Source: Golubevia sp. BC0850 (taxonomy: Eukaryota > Basidiomycota > Exobasidiomycetes > Golubeviales > Golubeviaceae). Taken from it: a stretch of DNA of 64,000 bases. The stretch is taken from NCBI GenBank assembly GCA_012976225.1, contig JAAVVG010000004.1, positions 620,001 through 684,000 of the forward strand, read 5' to 3'. This document shows, in pieces, positions 16,459 through 35,509 of this stretch; positions within the stretch are counted from its first letter, which is position 1; each line of letters starts with the position of its first letter. The position numbers and the translations under genes are program-made. The notes beneath the pieces are model-generated. The model was not told the origin of the DNA, made no database searches, and saw only the letters and a list, made by a program, of their open reading frames with translations.

Positions 16459-16563
16459 GGGCCGAGAGGGGAATTGAACCCCTGGTCTCTTCTATACGTT
16501 GCCGTCAAGCAGCAGAATGTTATCACACCCGAAAGAAGCGGATTACTACTTTCCCACACAGCC
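16459..16563 (-). tRNA. tRNA-Pro (anticodon CGG) with a 33-nt intron
   Basis: On the minus strand the order is acceptor GGCTGTG, a D arm with GGA/TCC pairing, anticodon stem CTTCT/AGAAG, and a loop TTCGGG..T with anticodon CGG. A 5-nt variable loop AGACC follows, then T arm AGGGG-TTCAATT-CCCCT, acceptor 3' strand CTCGGCC and discriminator C, usual for tRNA-Pro. The mature length would be 72 nt. The intron lies 3' to position 37, the normal eukaryotic site, at about 16495..16527. The acceptor stem has one U-U mismatch and one G-U pair, so a mildly degenerate copy cannot be excluded. Confidence 0.8.
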
Positions 16564-25194: not shown

Positions 25195-25790
25195 CTAGAT
25201 AGCAAATCCAGAAAGCTGCTTGACGTAACCGGTCGAGCCAGAGATGGAGTTCTTGGAGCCGTTGCCCTTTTGATCTTGGTTCCCGCAGTTGGTCAAGGTC
25301 GAAGCGTCGTGAGAAGATCTGTAGAGGGAGCAAGTCTGAGAAGATGATTGAAGAGTAAGAGAGAGAACGGAGTCATTGAAAGGAAGAGATTTTGAAGAAA
25401 TAGATAAGGGTGCACTCACAAGTCCATTCGCCTTGACAGAGTTGGCGTCGCTGTAGACGTTGACGAATTTACATCCAGAGACAGAATCTGTAGCCAAGAA
25501 GAAAACGAAAGTGAGATTGTGCTGAGATCGCGCTTTGACTCGAATCGACCCTTGAAATTCTAGTGCGGGTGCTCACCACAGAAATCGAGGCAGTCGTTGA
25601 CAGAGTCCTTGATAGCGTAAGTCATGTAGTCGGGAGCTTGGACTGCACAATTCTTGAGGGCAAAGTTGACCGTGTAGTTCAAGTTGACGACCGAGCGATC
25701 CTCCATTTGTTGAGCGGGAGCAGCCCTGATTGAAACCAGGGAAGTGGCGGCGGCGAGAAGAAGGGAAGAGGAGAGGGTGATGAATTGCAT
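25195..25790 (-). CDS. Small secreted Cys-rich (PAN/apple-like) protein, copy 1 (140 aa)
   Basis: Three exons: complement of 25577..25790, 25420..25487, 25195..25335; the frame closes. The start MQFITLSSS is chosen because it gives a signal peptide cut near SIRA-APA; the open frame extends further upstream, but through the TATA box. The mature part has C-x3-C, GCKF, LTCSLY and TNCGN. This is the pattern of basidiomycete secreted proteins annotated as fruit-body specific gene A-like, and it resembles the PAN-like repeats of the hydrolases at the left of this window. Likely an extracellular carbohydrate- or protein-binding module; function unproven. A second, identical gene lies at 36447..37042. 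Confidence 0.85.
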
Positions 25791-25918
25791 GTTGAAGGAT
25801 GAGAGGAAGTGGAGATGAGGGTGGATGATCGATGGGGCTAGATGAAGAAGAACAAGAGGAGAGAAGAAAGAGATGTGTTGAGGTGAAGGAATCGAGAAAA
25901 GGTGAGAAGAGTCGCCAG

Positions 25919-25926
25919 CTTTTATA
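25919..25926 (-). promoter_or_regulatory. TATA box of secreted-protein copy 1
   Basis: TATAAAAG on the minus strand, about 130 bp upstream of the ATG at 25790; it supports that ATG over the longer upstream open frame. Confidence 0.65.
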
Positions 25927-26195
25927 GGCAAACAGGAGCTGGTCGGGTTTTGGAGAGTTGAATCCTCTCGTCTGCATCCGTATTGAATCTTCATACCAGA
26001 CTGCTCCAGAAATCAGCTGAAGAGAAGGACGATAGCATTCCCGAATCTATCAAGCGGTGGCGAATACAGGACGAGGCCGACTTAGTCTCAAGCTAGGATC
26101 AGTCCCGAGAGGCCCTTTGGGTCACAGTAACCTGCCTAGGGTAATCAGATAATGTCTTTTCTTTGTCTTCCGGAAGGAATGTGGGGTCGAACATG

Positions 26196-26919: not shown

Positions 26920-28306
26920 CTACCTATAAAATTCAGCTCTCCTAGCTCCTACACCGTGTTCCTTCAAAGCAGCACTTAAATCATCCATAGTCAGAACAGT
27001 TCTACTTCTATCCGCAGGATTATTGGAATTATTACCAGAAGGTCTACCAACAGGTGCACCAGCAGTTCTTATCCTTGCATATTGAAATGCATCCGAAGCA
27101 ATGTCAGAAACGAATTTTTCAGCTGCTAATGAAAGGAGTCTTGAGAGACGTGGATCTGAGGAAGCGAAACCTGAACGGGAGAGGTAGTGAGAGGTGACTT
27201 CGTCTGGGATCTGAAGAGATGGGGAAGGAATGAAAAGATAGGAATTGAGAATGTTAAGGATAGCGGTTGATTGGAAGTAATAGACCAGAGGAAATGGAAG
27301 GGTTGGAAAAGGAGACAGAGGGAAGTGATAAGGGCGATGGAGAAAGCCTGGGCAGGCAGAGGGAGAGGAGAGGAGCAGAACACACTCGGATTTTCTCTTT
27401 CAAAAGAACTGGGGGAAACACTCACCAAAGGTTCATAACCATCCATCAACCTCAAAAACTCTGCCAAAGTTCTGTCTTTCCTAGCTTCCTCTTCTTCTCT
27501 TCTTGTCATTCCCATGCCATTCCCTGTCGCACCAACACCCCCACCCACTCCTGCCCCTGAAGCGCCGACTCCATTTGTAGTATGATTGTTAGCATTGGTA
27601 GGAGTCTTAGCACCATCTCTTTGAATTGAAAGACCTCTTCTAAGGGAATAACGTTCCAGATCTTCTCTGGTTGCAACTGCTAGGACGAAAGCTCGAGAGG
27701 GGGAAGTTACGAATGCGAAGGGTTGGGTACGGAGGAATACTGAGAGGAAGAAAGGAGGGAGGAGAGGGATTTTAGAGGGTTGGAGGGAATCTTTGGGAGA
27801 GAGAGCTAGAATCAAGAGCCTCCCCCTCTCTGCTCTACTTCTTTTAACCTCCAACTCCTCATTCTCTATTCAGACCATGAAAATCTAAACTCACATTCCA
27901 AATCTGCCAATCCAGTATCAGGTTCGATGATAGTATAACTTCCTTCAACCCCACCTTTGCCTTTTCCACCTCTAAACCTTTTCAAACAATTCTCAATCCC
28001 ATCTTCTCCCTTGACTTTCCCAATTTCCAATTTCTGTTTGAGTTCTCTGATATCTAAATAACCTTTCAATTTCCTATCGTTATCATCTAAAACAGGTAAT
28101 TGAGAATAATCATGATCATTTGCAACTGTCAAGGCTGTTAAAAGATTACTGTTTAATGAAACGCAAACTGCTGGTGGTAATTGTAAATCTTCAACTGTTG
28201 CACCACGATATAAGATTGAAAGTGATGATGAAGGTGAAATTTGTGGGGCTTGGATCGTTGGGATGAATGTTGCTGGTGAGGGAATTGAGGACGTGATGGC
28301 TGCCAT
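26920..28306 (-). CDS. TAF10: CBS-domain protein fused to TFIID/SAGA subunit TAF10 (338 aa)
   Basis: Three exons: complement of 27895..28306, 27426..27739, 26920..27210; all GT-AG and the frame closes. Residues about 30-185 are the small fungal CBS-pair protein (YRGATVEDLQLPPAV, SQLPVLDDNDRKLKGYLDIR, FVLAVATREDLERYSLRRG), which is normally a separate protein ending near the RR. The frame continues without stop through an Asn/Gly-rich linker into TAF10. There RTLAEFLRLMDGYEPL, IPDEVTSHYLSRSGF, AAEKFVSDIASDAFQYARIR, LTMDDLSAALKEHG and the terminal EFYR are the histone-fold signatures. TAF10 pairs with TAF3, TAF8 or SPT7 in TFIID and SAGA. The junction lies inside exon 2, so splicing cannot easily separate the halves. 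An internal promoter or start (MTRREEEEARKDRT) could still yield TAF10 alone. Confidence 0.85.
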
Positions 28307-29459: not shown

Positions 29460-32400
29460 ATGGATTCATCCTCAAAGACTAGAGACGATAGCATTCAGGC
29501 AGCAAAGAAGAAAGTGAGTTCAGTCCAACATCCAGCTGTTAGGCTACCGAGAAGGAGGAACAAAGGAGGATAGGGCCCTTGCCCCTCAGAGACGGGAATG
29601 AATCCAATCTCTTTCAGATGGGATGCTTCCCTCTAGAGTGGATAGTTACAGATGGCAGATGAATGGCAAAAGGGTCGGACTAGAAAGGGACAGGTACAGA
29701 GGAGAGGAGGAAGGGGTCGGTTCATCTGCTTTGAGCTAGTGAGGCTCGACAGTCGAGTGTCAGGACCTCAGGGAAGGTATCATCTCTGGGACGTGCAACC
29801 TGAGTCTTTGAGAGTGTTGTTAACAATGAGCTTTTCGGACGCAAGAAACGAGGGCCACTCCTGTTGTGGTGTGGTTTGGAGGGAGGGAGCGGTGGTGGAG
29901 ATGAGGCTTAGGAGAGATCTTGCAATTCTCTCTACCCTTCGTAAACTAGAGGGGGAACTCGTTGGGACTGCCAATCAAACTTGCGCCATGATGTAGCTAT
30001 TATTCCGGACCAGATTGATCAACGGTCGGATGAGAGGTGGAGAGGTGGAGATAGACTCCCTCCTTCCCCCTGGCCACCTGAGAATCTGAGTCCGGGAAAC
30101 CAGGCACCAAGTTCTTTCCTCACTCTCGAAATCATGATTTCTGACTCTCATTTGTAAATTCCTATCCCTTTACTTCCTCAGTTGAAAACCTTCCGAGCCA
30201 AACAAGCCTCGAAACGAACCTCTTCTTCAAATCCACCACCATCAACATCTCAACGTAACCGAGCCTCTTTAATCCTATCTCAAGCAGCAGCCTCGACCAT
30301 TTCCAATGCAATCGAACAAGCTTCAGATTTAGCCTCTCAACCGATTTCAAATCAATCATCTCATGTTAGAAACCACAGTAGAAGCAATTCCCGTGCAGGT
30401 CACGGTAGAGGACATTCAAGAGGTGGAAGTATTTCAATCACTGGATTGGGAATGGCTAATTTGGTTAAGGAATCCTTAAATAATTCAAATGCCAATGGAA
30501 TTCAATCGACATCTGGGATGTCAATCTCTGCTTCTTTACCAAGTGTATCGAATTCAAATTCAAACTCTGCGAGATCTTCATTCATAGCTTCAACTCCAAG
30601 TTCCAATCATTTAAGATCTCACTCTAGAAGTGGAAGTAAATCTTTAGGGAAAAGTAGACCTGCTAGTTTGATTGGACTTGGATCTTTAGATGGCAATGGC
30701 AACGGTAGAGAAGGTTTAACACTTTCAATTGAATTCCCACCTGATTCTAACTTTTCTGGAGCTGGCAAACCTGAAGACTGGAAAGACATTAATAATCACA
30801 ACAATGGTTTGAACAGGAATTCAAATCGATCAAGCAATGATGGTGGTAGGAAGAGCTGGAACTCTTCCTCTAATAGATTAAGTGCACCTGGTTCTAGAAG
30901 GAATTCAGATAGACCTTTATCTGGCGGTTCTGCAACTTCTGGAAAGTCAGTCTCTTCTAATGGAACTGTTAATGGTAGTTCAAGTCCTATTCCACCACCT
31001 TTAAGTCCAATTAGAACTTCATTTTTGAATAATAGTCCTCAACCTAACACTTCTTCAAGTCCTCAACCTTTGTCTTCTTCAAGTAGTAATCGTAGACTTT
31101 CAAGACATGGTAGACAATCTTCAATTTCTACCAAGAGGGAATCTATGGAAATCATGGGTGGCTTGGATTTAGGTTCAAGAGCTTCCAAAAGGTTTAGTTC
31201 TAATAGAACGAGTGGAATTCAATCTGCTAGCGTTCTTTTTGGTGGAGAACCTGATTCTGGTAATCAAAGTAATAGGAAAAGCGTTAAAGATTGGGACATG
31301 AGAGGAATTCAGGATTTAAGTGAAGACGGTGAAGATAGGTTGACTGCCCTTGAAAAATTGGAGGGCAGAAGTAGATCTGTTAGTCCCATTCCCCCAATTT
31401 CTGAAACTCCTAGATCTCCAAATCCTAGAGAATCAAAGAGAGAAAGTTTAGTTCAATTACCTAGCTTTGAAGATCTACATGGTGAAAATGGAATGGATCA
31501 AAGGAAGAGTTTGGGACTTTTGGAGAGAAATGAAATGAACACTAGTTCTGCAAGTCAACCTACAAATGCTATCAGTGGGATTAACTGGGATGATTCAACT
31601 CAAGGAATGTCAAGTTCAGATTCCAATGTTTCGATTTCATCTTCCACTTCAAATCCTAGACCTCTCTCTATGTTTGGTGATCCTTCCGCTAATTTGGAGG
31701 GATTGACAACTTTAACAGAAGAAGAAGAAGAAGAAGAAGAAGAATCTTTGGTTAAGTCTTTGAATGTCGATGTTGAATCTCAAGACTCTTTACCTGATTT
31801 AGATGAATTGAAACGATCCAGAAGAGCTTCCTTGACTCCCAAACCGTTGAAACTTAAGAGTAGACCAGCTAGTTTATTCATTGGAAACGGATTCAGAGGA
31901 AATGCTCCAAACAATTTCGGACTGGGTGGAATTCAATTATCTACCAGTCCAAGTCTCGGAAACCTTTCTGAAGACAGTGGGTCCAAAAAGGTTGGATCTC
32001 CTGCCTCTTCAACGGTCAAATCTCCTGCAAGATCTGAAATTGAATTCTCACCTCCAACTACAGCTCGTGCTTTCCCTTCAAGTACATCATCCATTGAAAG
32101 TAAAAGAGGTTACAGATCTTCGATGCATTTCGTTCCAGAAGCCATTGCTTCCGATCTTCAAACTCCTTCTCCTTCAGCTTCTGCAACTCCAACTGGTCCG
32201 AGAGGAATGAAACCTCTTAAATTAGCAACTGCTTCAGTCACAAGTCCTTCAGCTGGTGATTCTCCAGTTTCGATCGGTAATGCTAATTCCTTCACTTTCC
32301 CACCAACTCACGGTTCTCAATCTTCTATCGCCTCAACTGCTAGTGCTAGTACTACTAAAAGAAACTCTCTTTTACAGTTGGGTTCTTTGGGCAGACCAAG

Positions 32401-35400
32401 CTTGGAAGGAAGAGATGAACTCGTTTCAAATACTCCTTCACCTTCCATTAGTCCGGCTGGTGGTTCAATGAGAAGAAGTAGCATCATCTACAAATCAAGC
32501 AAAAATACCGATAACTCTGCTTCTCCATCTTCCAATTCTAGTTACTTCCCCCATGAATCGTCTGCCTCATCATCCTCGGCATCATCATCCACCTCAATCA
32601 CTCCTTCTAACTCAGGGTCAAATCTCAACCTCAATTCATCCAACTCCGTCTCTCTTGCAACTCACGAAGAACTCAAGTCCAAGTCTGCTAGAGATTTGAA
32701 TCTTCTCGAAATCTCTAGATCGCAAGTCGAGAGGTTGCAAAAAGAGTTGGACATCCAAATCTCAAGATCTTCTTCTGAGTATGTTGAATTAGAATCAAAA
32801 TCTACTTCTCAATACAAAGAGCTTGAGAATTGGGGTATTGAACAGAAGAAAGCTTTAGGTTTAACTATTCAAGGATTAGAGAATCAACTTAATGAAGCTT
32901 TGCAGAAAGTTCAAGAACTAGAAATTCAACAAAGAGACGGTGGTGAGAGATTGAGAGGAATGGAACAGGAACTTAGAGAGAAAGACGAAGAATTGAAGGA
33001 GAGGCTAGAAGACTTTGAGAACGAAAGGGATAATTGGAAAGAAGATGAAGAAGGTTGGAGAACTAGATGTTCGAATGCTGAGAAGGGAATCATGAAGGAA
33101 AGAAGTAAAGTCGAAGAAGCAAGTAGAAAATCAGAAGCGTTACGCAAGAGGACAAAGGTTCTAACCGAAACTCTTGAGAAGGGAGGTCTAGAAATCCCAG
33201 CAGAAGAAGAATCTCTTGGAACTGGAAATGAAGAATTCTCTTTCGATTTGGCTACTGTTTTAAGAAGTCCTGCTATTGGTGGACCGATGAGATCTCCTGC
33301 TATCGGATCTGGAGACGCTTCTGGTTATTTCTCTCCTTCTTTCAATTCGGGTAGAAGTTTCAGTGGGAACAATGGAGTTGGTAGAACTAGTAGAGATGTT
33401 GAAGATACTCCTGCTACGGTTCAATTGCTAAAGGAAATGAGACAACAAATCTTCAATTTGGCCGGAAGTCTTGAACATGAAAGGAAAGAACATTTAAGAG
33501 CTAGAAAAGAATGTGAAGAATTGAAAGAAGCTTCAAATTCTGCTATGAATCAGGAAGAGGAAGAGGAACTCAACGATTCTTCAAATGACTCGAATGAAAT
33601 GAACTCTACTTTAGATGGACCTTTGACTAATAACAATGATGGTTCTTTGAGAAGAAGTACTTCAAATCCAAGAATCGGTTCAAGTGCAAGAACCAAAAAA
33701 CATGTTTTCGCTTATGATTCTTCTATGGGAAGCTTTGGTCAATCGGTTGGAAGCAACAGTTGTAGTGGTGGTGATCGAATCAGAAGTCAAAATGTTTCTA
33801 TTAGCATGAGCACATCAACTGACGACACTGGATTGGATGATGAATCTCTGAACCTTGGAAACTCCAGCACCAAAGATTACCAAACCGGTTTAACTCAAGA
33901 TTCTAAGATCCCTCCTCTTTCAAGCTCTAGTTCAGTCGCAAGTAACCTTACCGTCATTCCGACTTCTGGTTCTGATGAGGATATAGTAGGACTCGGAGTT
34001 GCAATGGGTGGACTTCAAACTCTGACCGAAGAAGAGGAAGCGGAAACTTTGGAAGCAGACGATGAACCTAAAGAAATGGAAGCTGGTTCTCCTTTCGGAG
34101 AAGCTCAAGAACATTTAGTAGATAATGACTTCGATTTGGAAGCTGGACCTGCCGGTGATTGGGAGGATGAAGATGAAGAAGAGTTAGAAGCAACAATTCC
34201 TCCAACTCCCGCTCTTGATCACGACGAGCAGTACGAATCTACTCCTCCTCCTTCATATAGATCTGGAGATCATCAAACTTCTTCTTCTCAGGGAGAAGAT
34301 CTCGACTTCAACAATCGTGACAGCGGAGGTTCAACTGAAAGTCATGGTCCAGTCTCTCCGGTTGAACAACAAGTTTTAGTCGAGGAAGACGATGATTATG
34401 AAGATGAAGAAGAATCGGAAGACGAAGAGAGCCCTCAATCCTCAACTCCTTCTGGAGAACCAAGACCTGAGTTCCTTCGAGAATGGTCATTCTCTAGAGC
34501 CACCGCTGCAGTTCAATCTCAACATAAATCAAAGAGAAGCTCCAAAAGTCAAGCAGGTCCAAAGAAGAAATCCAAAAAGACCAAAGCCTTGAAGGAGAAG
34601 GAGATGGTGGTGGATATGGAAGATTTCTTTGGTATCATGTCAGATCATTCCCTACCTCCTTTACCAACTCCAGCTGAAGCTTTAGAAATGCCGCCAGTCT
34701 ATATCGAACCTGCTTCTACTTTCGGATTTGGAATTCTAGGTGCAAGTCAATCTTATGACAAAGCTCCAAGATCTTCAATGAGAGTTGCTTCTGTTGTTAA
34801 TCCAACTGGTGGAGTTCGTAGACCTCCAGTTGCAAGATCTGCTTACATCAGAGAATCCTTTGAATCAAATCATCAAGATGGTTCTTTCTCTTCTACCAAT
34901 TCAAATCAACTCAACAACACTTCTTCACCTCATGGTTCCATTTCTTCAAATTCAAACTCTAATTCTTCAGGAAGTATCTCTGGAAATGCAATCGCTTTCG
35001 CAACTTCAGCAGTTTCAGCTAAAGCTTTAAGTAGAATGTCTTTACAAGGTTTAAGTTCTGCTTTCTCTGGTTTAGGTGGTTATTTAACTTCTCAATCTGG
35101 TAGTGCTGTCAGCGTTGCTGCAAATGCTACCAGAATGTGTAATGGAAATGGTGAAATCTCTCCAGTTCATGAAAACGTTTTGAATTTAGGTGGGAATTCT
35201 GAAAGCGTTGACTGGATTGAAGCTAGAAGGAGAGAATCTTCTGAAAATGATGGTTTCTATCAAGGTGAAGATGATGATGATATGCATCCTGCTGTCAGGA
35301 AAGCTATTGGAAATTCTTCAAATGGTCCATTCAGCTCAATCTCTTCTAGAAATTCTGAATCTTCAAACAAATTCTCTAATTCTTCCAACTTCAAAAGAAG

Positions 35401-35509
35401 GTTTTTGAGTAAGGAAGAATGTCAAAAACCAATTGAAACTCCAATCTGGTTGTTGGATTTCGAGAGGTCTACCATGGGTAAAGGAGCTGGTCCTCTTATT
35501 ATGCTTTGA
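29460..35509 (+). CDS. Large Ser/Asn-rich protein with central coiled coil (1793 aa), function unknown
   Basis: Two exons: 29460..29513 (18 codons, MDSSSKTRDDSIQAAKKK) and 30182..35509, with a long 668-nt intron. The N-terminus QAAKKKLKTFRAKQ is a short basic helix spanning the intron. It recalls the AAAKKKL start of golgins such as GM130, but this is only suggestive. Residues about 25-830 are disordered, Ser/Asn/Arg-rich, with many R-x-x-S and SPxP motifs (likely kinase targets). A heptad-rich coiled coil spans about 850-1020 (SQVERLQKELDIQ, LTIQGLENQLNEALQKVQEL), with a short one near 1100-1140. Acidic tracts surround 1280-1430, with a Lys-rich stretch after. A (GAA)n run encodes poly-Glu near 31715. 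It is probably a scaffold or tether protein. Confidence 0.75.

Follow-up and report, generated by a model that had tools for sequence, protein, structure and literature searches.

Does a single gene of the basidiomycete Golubevia sp. BC0850 join a pair of CBS domains to TAF10, a protein common to TFIID and SAGA as stated in an excerpt of PMC10744473, or do two ordinary genes abut at this locus? All coordinates refer to the window, that is, the whole stretch of 64,000 nucleotides that was analysed (positions 620,001 to 684,000 of contig JAAVVG010000004.1).

One spliced frame with a CBS pair and TAF10

The probable CBS-TAF10 gene lies on the minus strand from 28306 to 26920; its three exons, once the two consensus introns are removed, form a 338-aa frame that closes with a TAG stop. 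Reading of the spliced frame showed that the coordinates, exon structure and protein length given in the initial annotation were correct, and that the CBS and TAF10 parts do share one frame across the two introns, as it had claimed; the strand is minus. At Met1 the start context has A at -3 and G at +4. The features of the gene are as follows.

27895..28306, minus strand: exon 1, Met1 through residue 137 plus one base, with the first CBS repeat and a portion of the second (PF00571 above cut-off; frame and junction)
27740..27894, minus strand: intron 1, GTGAGT...CTCTCAG, 155 nt
27426..27739, minus strand: exon 2, which completes the second CBS repeat (at residue 168), spans the linker (about residues 169-220) and opens TAF10 (about residue 221 or 229)
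27492..27635, minus strand: linker residues 173-220, Gly/Asn/Thr-rich and stop-free in frame
27507..27515, minus strand: Met213 and Met215; besides Met1, no other in-frame ATG precedes the conserved TAF10 part
27211..27425, minus strand: intron 2, GTGAGT...TCTTCAG, 215 nt, 73% pyrimidine
26920..27210, minus strand: exon 3, TAF10 histone fold, C-terminus and TAG stop (PF03540, 108 bits)

Splice sites were scored with donor and acceptor matrices self-trained from hand-set consensus words on 66 candidate introns, for which 264 kb of this contig were used; GTGAGT or GTAAGT is present in 26 of these 66 and some of them are probably false, so that all percentiles are rough. The donor of intron 1 stands at the 86th and its acceptor at the 79th percentile, and stops occur in all three forward frames of the intron. 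For intron 2, the donor is at the 76th percentile and the acceptor equals or exceeds 51 of the 66 learned acceptors. This second intron is stop-free in the frame that enters it and is flanked on both sides by TAF10 homology; were it retained, the reading frame would bypass TAF10 and close at 27126.

The TAF10 part is complete and in frame, as had been proposed: on the spliced protein PF03540 matches residues 229-337 over the entire profile (1-102 of 102) with an E-value of 1.9e-35 and 121.5 bits against a cut-off of 28. The share of exon 2 in this match is visible in the score, which rises to that value from 107.4 bits for the ORF holding exon 3, the profile now being filled from position 1. 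Alignments with five distinct TAF10 chains from the PDB begin at residues 201-228, three of the five at 221/222, and the best of them (9ynu_G) aligns in two stretches from residue 222 to the final residue. When the 25.8 Mb genome (64 contigs) was searched with PF03540, one match was obtained, this locus at 108 bits, which is the sole candidate found in that genome for the essential TAF10 subunit.

CBS domains often serve as binding sites for metabolites, and conserved small stand-alone CBS-pair proteins exist in fungi. On the N-terminal side of our protein, PF00571 exceeds its cut-off of 24 bits for residues 38-92 only (28.1 bits); in the Pfam scan of the spliced protein it gave no match to the second CBS repeat, which we counted against a fusion. 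The second repeat is covered solely by the NCBIfam model TIGR01137, which aligns residues 32-168 with model positions 334-455 of 457 (E 1.1e-9, 37.5 bits). Exon 2 contributes here as well, the match without it reaching 26.7 bits and ending at model position 410. The score falls far below the whole-protein cut-off of 510.25, as is expected because the catalytic part is absent, and Pfam gave no match to the PLP catalytic domain (PALP) in the spliced protein. Identity of the protein as a cystathionine beta-synthase was rejected on these grounds (37.5 bits vs 510.25, model positions 334-455 only, no PALP). The second repeat retains a T-x-x-D motif (A-V-A-T161-R-E-D164-L), whose T161 and D164 align with the corresponding T and D of the regulatory domain of human cystathionine beta-synthase (V-V-T-A-I-D-L-L). 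The ligand motif of the first repeat, GYLDIREL, is degenerate and non-canonical, and this too was entered as a point against. Judged by sequence, residues 32-168 resemble a CBS pair. A search of the organism’s own genome with the whole 338-aa protein (E up to 10) matched this locus alone.

The linker inside exon 2

The two homologies meet on exon 2, where the TIGR01137 match runs to residue 168 and the PF03540 match begins at residue 229. Some 50 stop-free codons, in the same exon and the same frame, separate Y168, where the CBS pair ends, from residue 221 or so, where TAF10 begins, which bears out the earlier view that the join falls inside exon 2 with no stop. An open stretch of this length is by itself not rare (12-14% of control windows), and this was counted against a fusion: windows of 48 codons were stop-free in 13.8% of 7984 overlapping cases on both strands outside ORFs of at least 100 aa, and in 11.6% of off-frame coding cases.

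Codon usage gives additional information. In frame, residues 173-220 score 0.27 per codon, compared to -0.24 and -0.43 in the other forward frames. The in-frame 48-codon windows of long ORFs that served as controls had a mean of 0.09 (sd 0.13), the codon table having been trained on these same long ORFs, and among stop-free windows outside ORFs of at least 100 aa, which overlap one another and may include small true exons, the 95th percentile was 0.21 and the 99th percentile 0.28. Residues 173-212, located before the first possible internal Met, score 0.29, and the 20-codon score is positive from residue 161 through the end of the protein. By synonymous choice alone residues 173-212 score 0.011, intermediate between the values expected of non-coding (-0.061) and of coding sequence (0.055), and the two are not separated (P = 0.15); the linker's coding score therefore owes much to amino-acid composition, which was counted against a fusion.

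All 20 AGs in the linker (first exon base 27616-27450) score under every one of the 66 learned acceptors, in agreement with the initial annotation, which had seen no convincing splice site between the halves. Acceptor-like AGs are present ahead of the linker core, with first exon bases at 27691, 27676, 27639 and 27618 (15th, 27th, 8th and 3rd percentile, respectively). We rejected these four: splicing to any of them from an upstream donor would truncate the second CBS repeat, and homology does not require them. Donor-like sites within the linker, at 27548 (32nd percentile) and 27544 (48th percentile), were counted against a fusion. As functional alternatives they were rejected, since with either of them TAF10 would lose its start, and with the one at 27544 its histone fold as well. 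A splice from the donor-like GGA/GTGGGT at 27548 to the acceptor of intron 2 is in frame and gives 297 aa, minus residues 202-242; it is a possible candidate for a minor isoform.

The Met residues of the frame are at positions 1, 213, 215, 236 and 317, with none at 2-212. The lack of Met over this range, the absence of an acceptor-like AG from the linker and the homology on both sides of exon 2 in one frame together lift the linker beyond chance. The evidence that the linker is coding is good, not conclusive.

From these data a real CBS-TAF10 fusion appears probable, and its translation as a single protein is likely. The product of the one gene would then begin with a CBS pair (about residues 32-168), continue through a Gly/Asn/Thr-rich linker of flexible appearance and end in a complete TAF10. 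Could the continuity of the frame instead be coincidental, with a CBS gene that ends through an unrecognised intron or another splice form and a TAF10 gene that starts at Met213? The frequency of stop-free 48-codon stretches (13.8% of the 7984 control windows) is in favor of two such abutting genes, as are a branch-like word (CTAAC at 27592) and the donor-like sites at 27548 and 27544, the latter of which, joined to the acceptor of intron 2, brings a stop after 232 residues. However, the linker AGs all lie below every learned acceptor, the codon score of the linker is high and the CBS frame reaches no stop before that of TAF10, and we regard this arrangement as improbable. An assembly or sequencing error that deleted a stop or shifted the frame between two ordinary genes would be conceivable, the basis being a single assembly without reads; with a 20-codon score that is positive from residue 161 on and both exon-2 homologies in one frame, we consider such an error very improbable.

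A further arrangement keeps the fused long form and adds a short TAF10 from Met213 or Met215, made through an internal promoter or by internal or leaky initiation. A start at these residues would give 126 or 124 aa, respectively; the calculated mass is 14.0 kDa from Met213, compared with 36.4 kDa for the fused form. Met213 has G at both -3 and +4, and the stretch that aligns with the solved TAF10 chains starts 6-9 residues past Met215/Met213. The start would, on the other hand, be located inside an exon whose preceding codons (173-212) look coding and are unneeded by a short TAF10. We consider such dual products rather doubtful and return to the fused protein below.

A possible role for the CBS pair

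What could a CBS pair do at the N-terminus of TAF10? According to an excerpt of PMC4309443, the histone-fold region 116-218 of human TAF10 needs no other part of the protein for full function in a complementation assay, the nuclear transport of TAF10 depends on TAF8, and human-yeast TAF10 chimeras failed. Because the human region 116-218 suffices, a changed N-terminus may be tolerated, and with TAF8-dependent import a folded N-terminal addition could enter TFIID and SAGA. The TAF10 histone fold, which as a TAF10 would be expected to pair with TAF8, TAF3 or Spt7, would carry the CBS pair into both complexes. There the pair would stand where other TAF10 proteins have a variable N-terminal tail. 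It may use T161-x-x-D164 to bind an adenosyl ligand (SAM, AMP or ATP), may dimerise, or may do both, and would so add a ligand-responsive surface. Taken as a whole, this explanation, a fused CBS pair-linker-TAF10 that is carried into TFIID/SAGA and provides such a surface, seems to us probable.

Binding of a ligand at one site, the predicted T161-x-x-D164, is plausible. Human cystathionine beta-synthase is SAM-regulated, and the aligned T and D of its regulatory domain are presumably SAM contacts. SAM is as good a candidate as AMP or ATP, because only the second repeat keeps T-x-x-D and a cystathionine beta-synthase-like enzyme of this genome (on C23) was seen without a CBS pair; the best NCBIfam model, that of cystathionine beta-synthase, likewise admits SAM as a candidate.

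The C23 gene (L010 1100-774, minus strand) matches TIGR01137 over the catalytic part only (model positions 24-301), and by reading of the DNA its frame stops soon past the catalytic domain (...IKA stop, at ...RNYITKPWLLEGDSGTDIKA). A second enzyme of this type, on C55, matches model positions 6-302. The genome has at least five CBS matches, one of which is the present gene, and none was found on C23 or C55, although the search may overlook a pair that has diverged. A bold proposal would be that a SAM-responsive CBS pair was displaced from cystathionine beta-synthase onto TAF10. Against it stand a BLASTP comparison with the human regulatory domain, which scored 18.5 bits and was confined to 47 columns in the first part, and a phmmer search (E up to 10) that lists CG1753 (3pc2) at E 0.94 and no entry named cystathionine beta-synthase, human included.

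Whatever its nature, the task of the CBS part must run from this protein, because no other genomic copy was found. The fusion may equally well be real and neutral, a reading to which we give an even chance, with the CBS pair a passenger that has no effect on TFIID or SAGA. The human TAF10 histone fold works alone, so that N-terminal additions may be tolerated (excerpt of PMC4309443), and the degenerate ligand motif of the first repeat fits a passenger. Retention of both repeats and of T-x-x-D, without another copy found in the genome, argues against it. A regulatory role of any kind for the CBS pair is possible and, in our estimate, unlikely; still more tentative is the suggestion that the CBS pair on TAF10 is a metabolite sensor for SAM (or AMP/ATP) and tunes promoter activity or SAGA recruitment to the methyl-donor or energy state. 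A coupling to energy state had been put forward in the initial annotation. If it does bind a ligand, the CBS module on TAF10 would tie metabolism physically and directly to general transcription. The fusion would also mark a fungal group if it were conserved across one, and, if neutral, it would still show that the TAF10 N-terminus is able to carry a folded domain.

Neighbouring features and known systems

Elsewhere in the window, a 1783-codon Ser/Asn-rich open frame (30158-35509, plus strand) and an open frame with a signal-peptide-like start (MQFITLSSSLLLAAATSLVSIRAAPA) and cysteines (25560-26012, minus strand) have no Pfam match at E 0.01. At gathering scores Rfam matches the window once, at a tRNA gene of 105 nt (16459-16563, minus strand), which probably has an intron in view of its length. 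A search of the genome for 5.8S gave no match at E <= 0.001, and in the one frame examined of each of L002 and L006 Pfam gave none. The IMPDH of this genome has PDB 4af0, the Cryptococcus neoformans IMPDH, as its best match, which by itself would suggest a tremellomycete-like basidiomycete.

The initial annotation knew of no described CBS-TAF10 protein. In line with this, the open-access literature gave none among the matches listed; print and annotation databases may differ. In the main text of a fungal gene-fusion study that includes Cryptococcus neoformans, TAF10 and TFIID are absent (PMC2557144), and excerpts of PMC1282579, PMC5731698, PMC5604411 and PMC5940140 contain the terms of interest only in unconnected places. 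Viral contigs held no relatives of the ORFs for TAF10 and exon 1, and genome contigs none of the CBS part, these collections being not fungal. Within the searches made, the domain combination was met nowhere else.

The CBS half resembles the regulatory CBS pair of cystathionine beta-synthase, which is the best NCBIfam match, covers both repeats and has an aligned T-x-x-D in the second; the catalytic domain of that enzyme is absent from our protein. AMPK gamma has the same domain type, with weak matches (E about 0.4), and is not linked to TAF10; its CBS repeats, which bind AMP/ATP, are more numerous than here. In length and motif order we take the small stand-alone fungal CBS-pair proteins to be like this CBS part. 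Those proteins end right after the second repeat, whereas the present frame continues into TAF10.

On the TAF10 side, a C-terminal FYR end is common to our protein and three of the five listed solved chains. Four of these chains are long (204-218 residues), and in them the match starts at chain residue 49-84; a CBS pair, at some 120 residues, would not fit ahead of it. In our protein, about 220 residues precede the TAF10 match.
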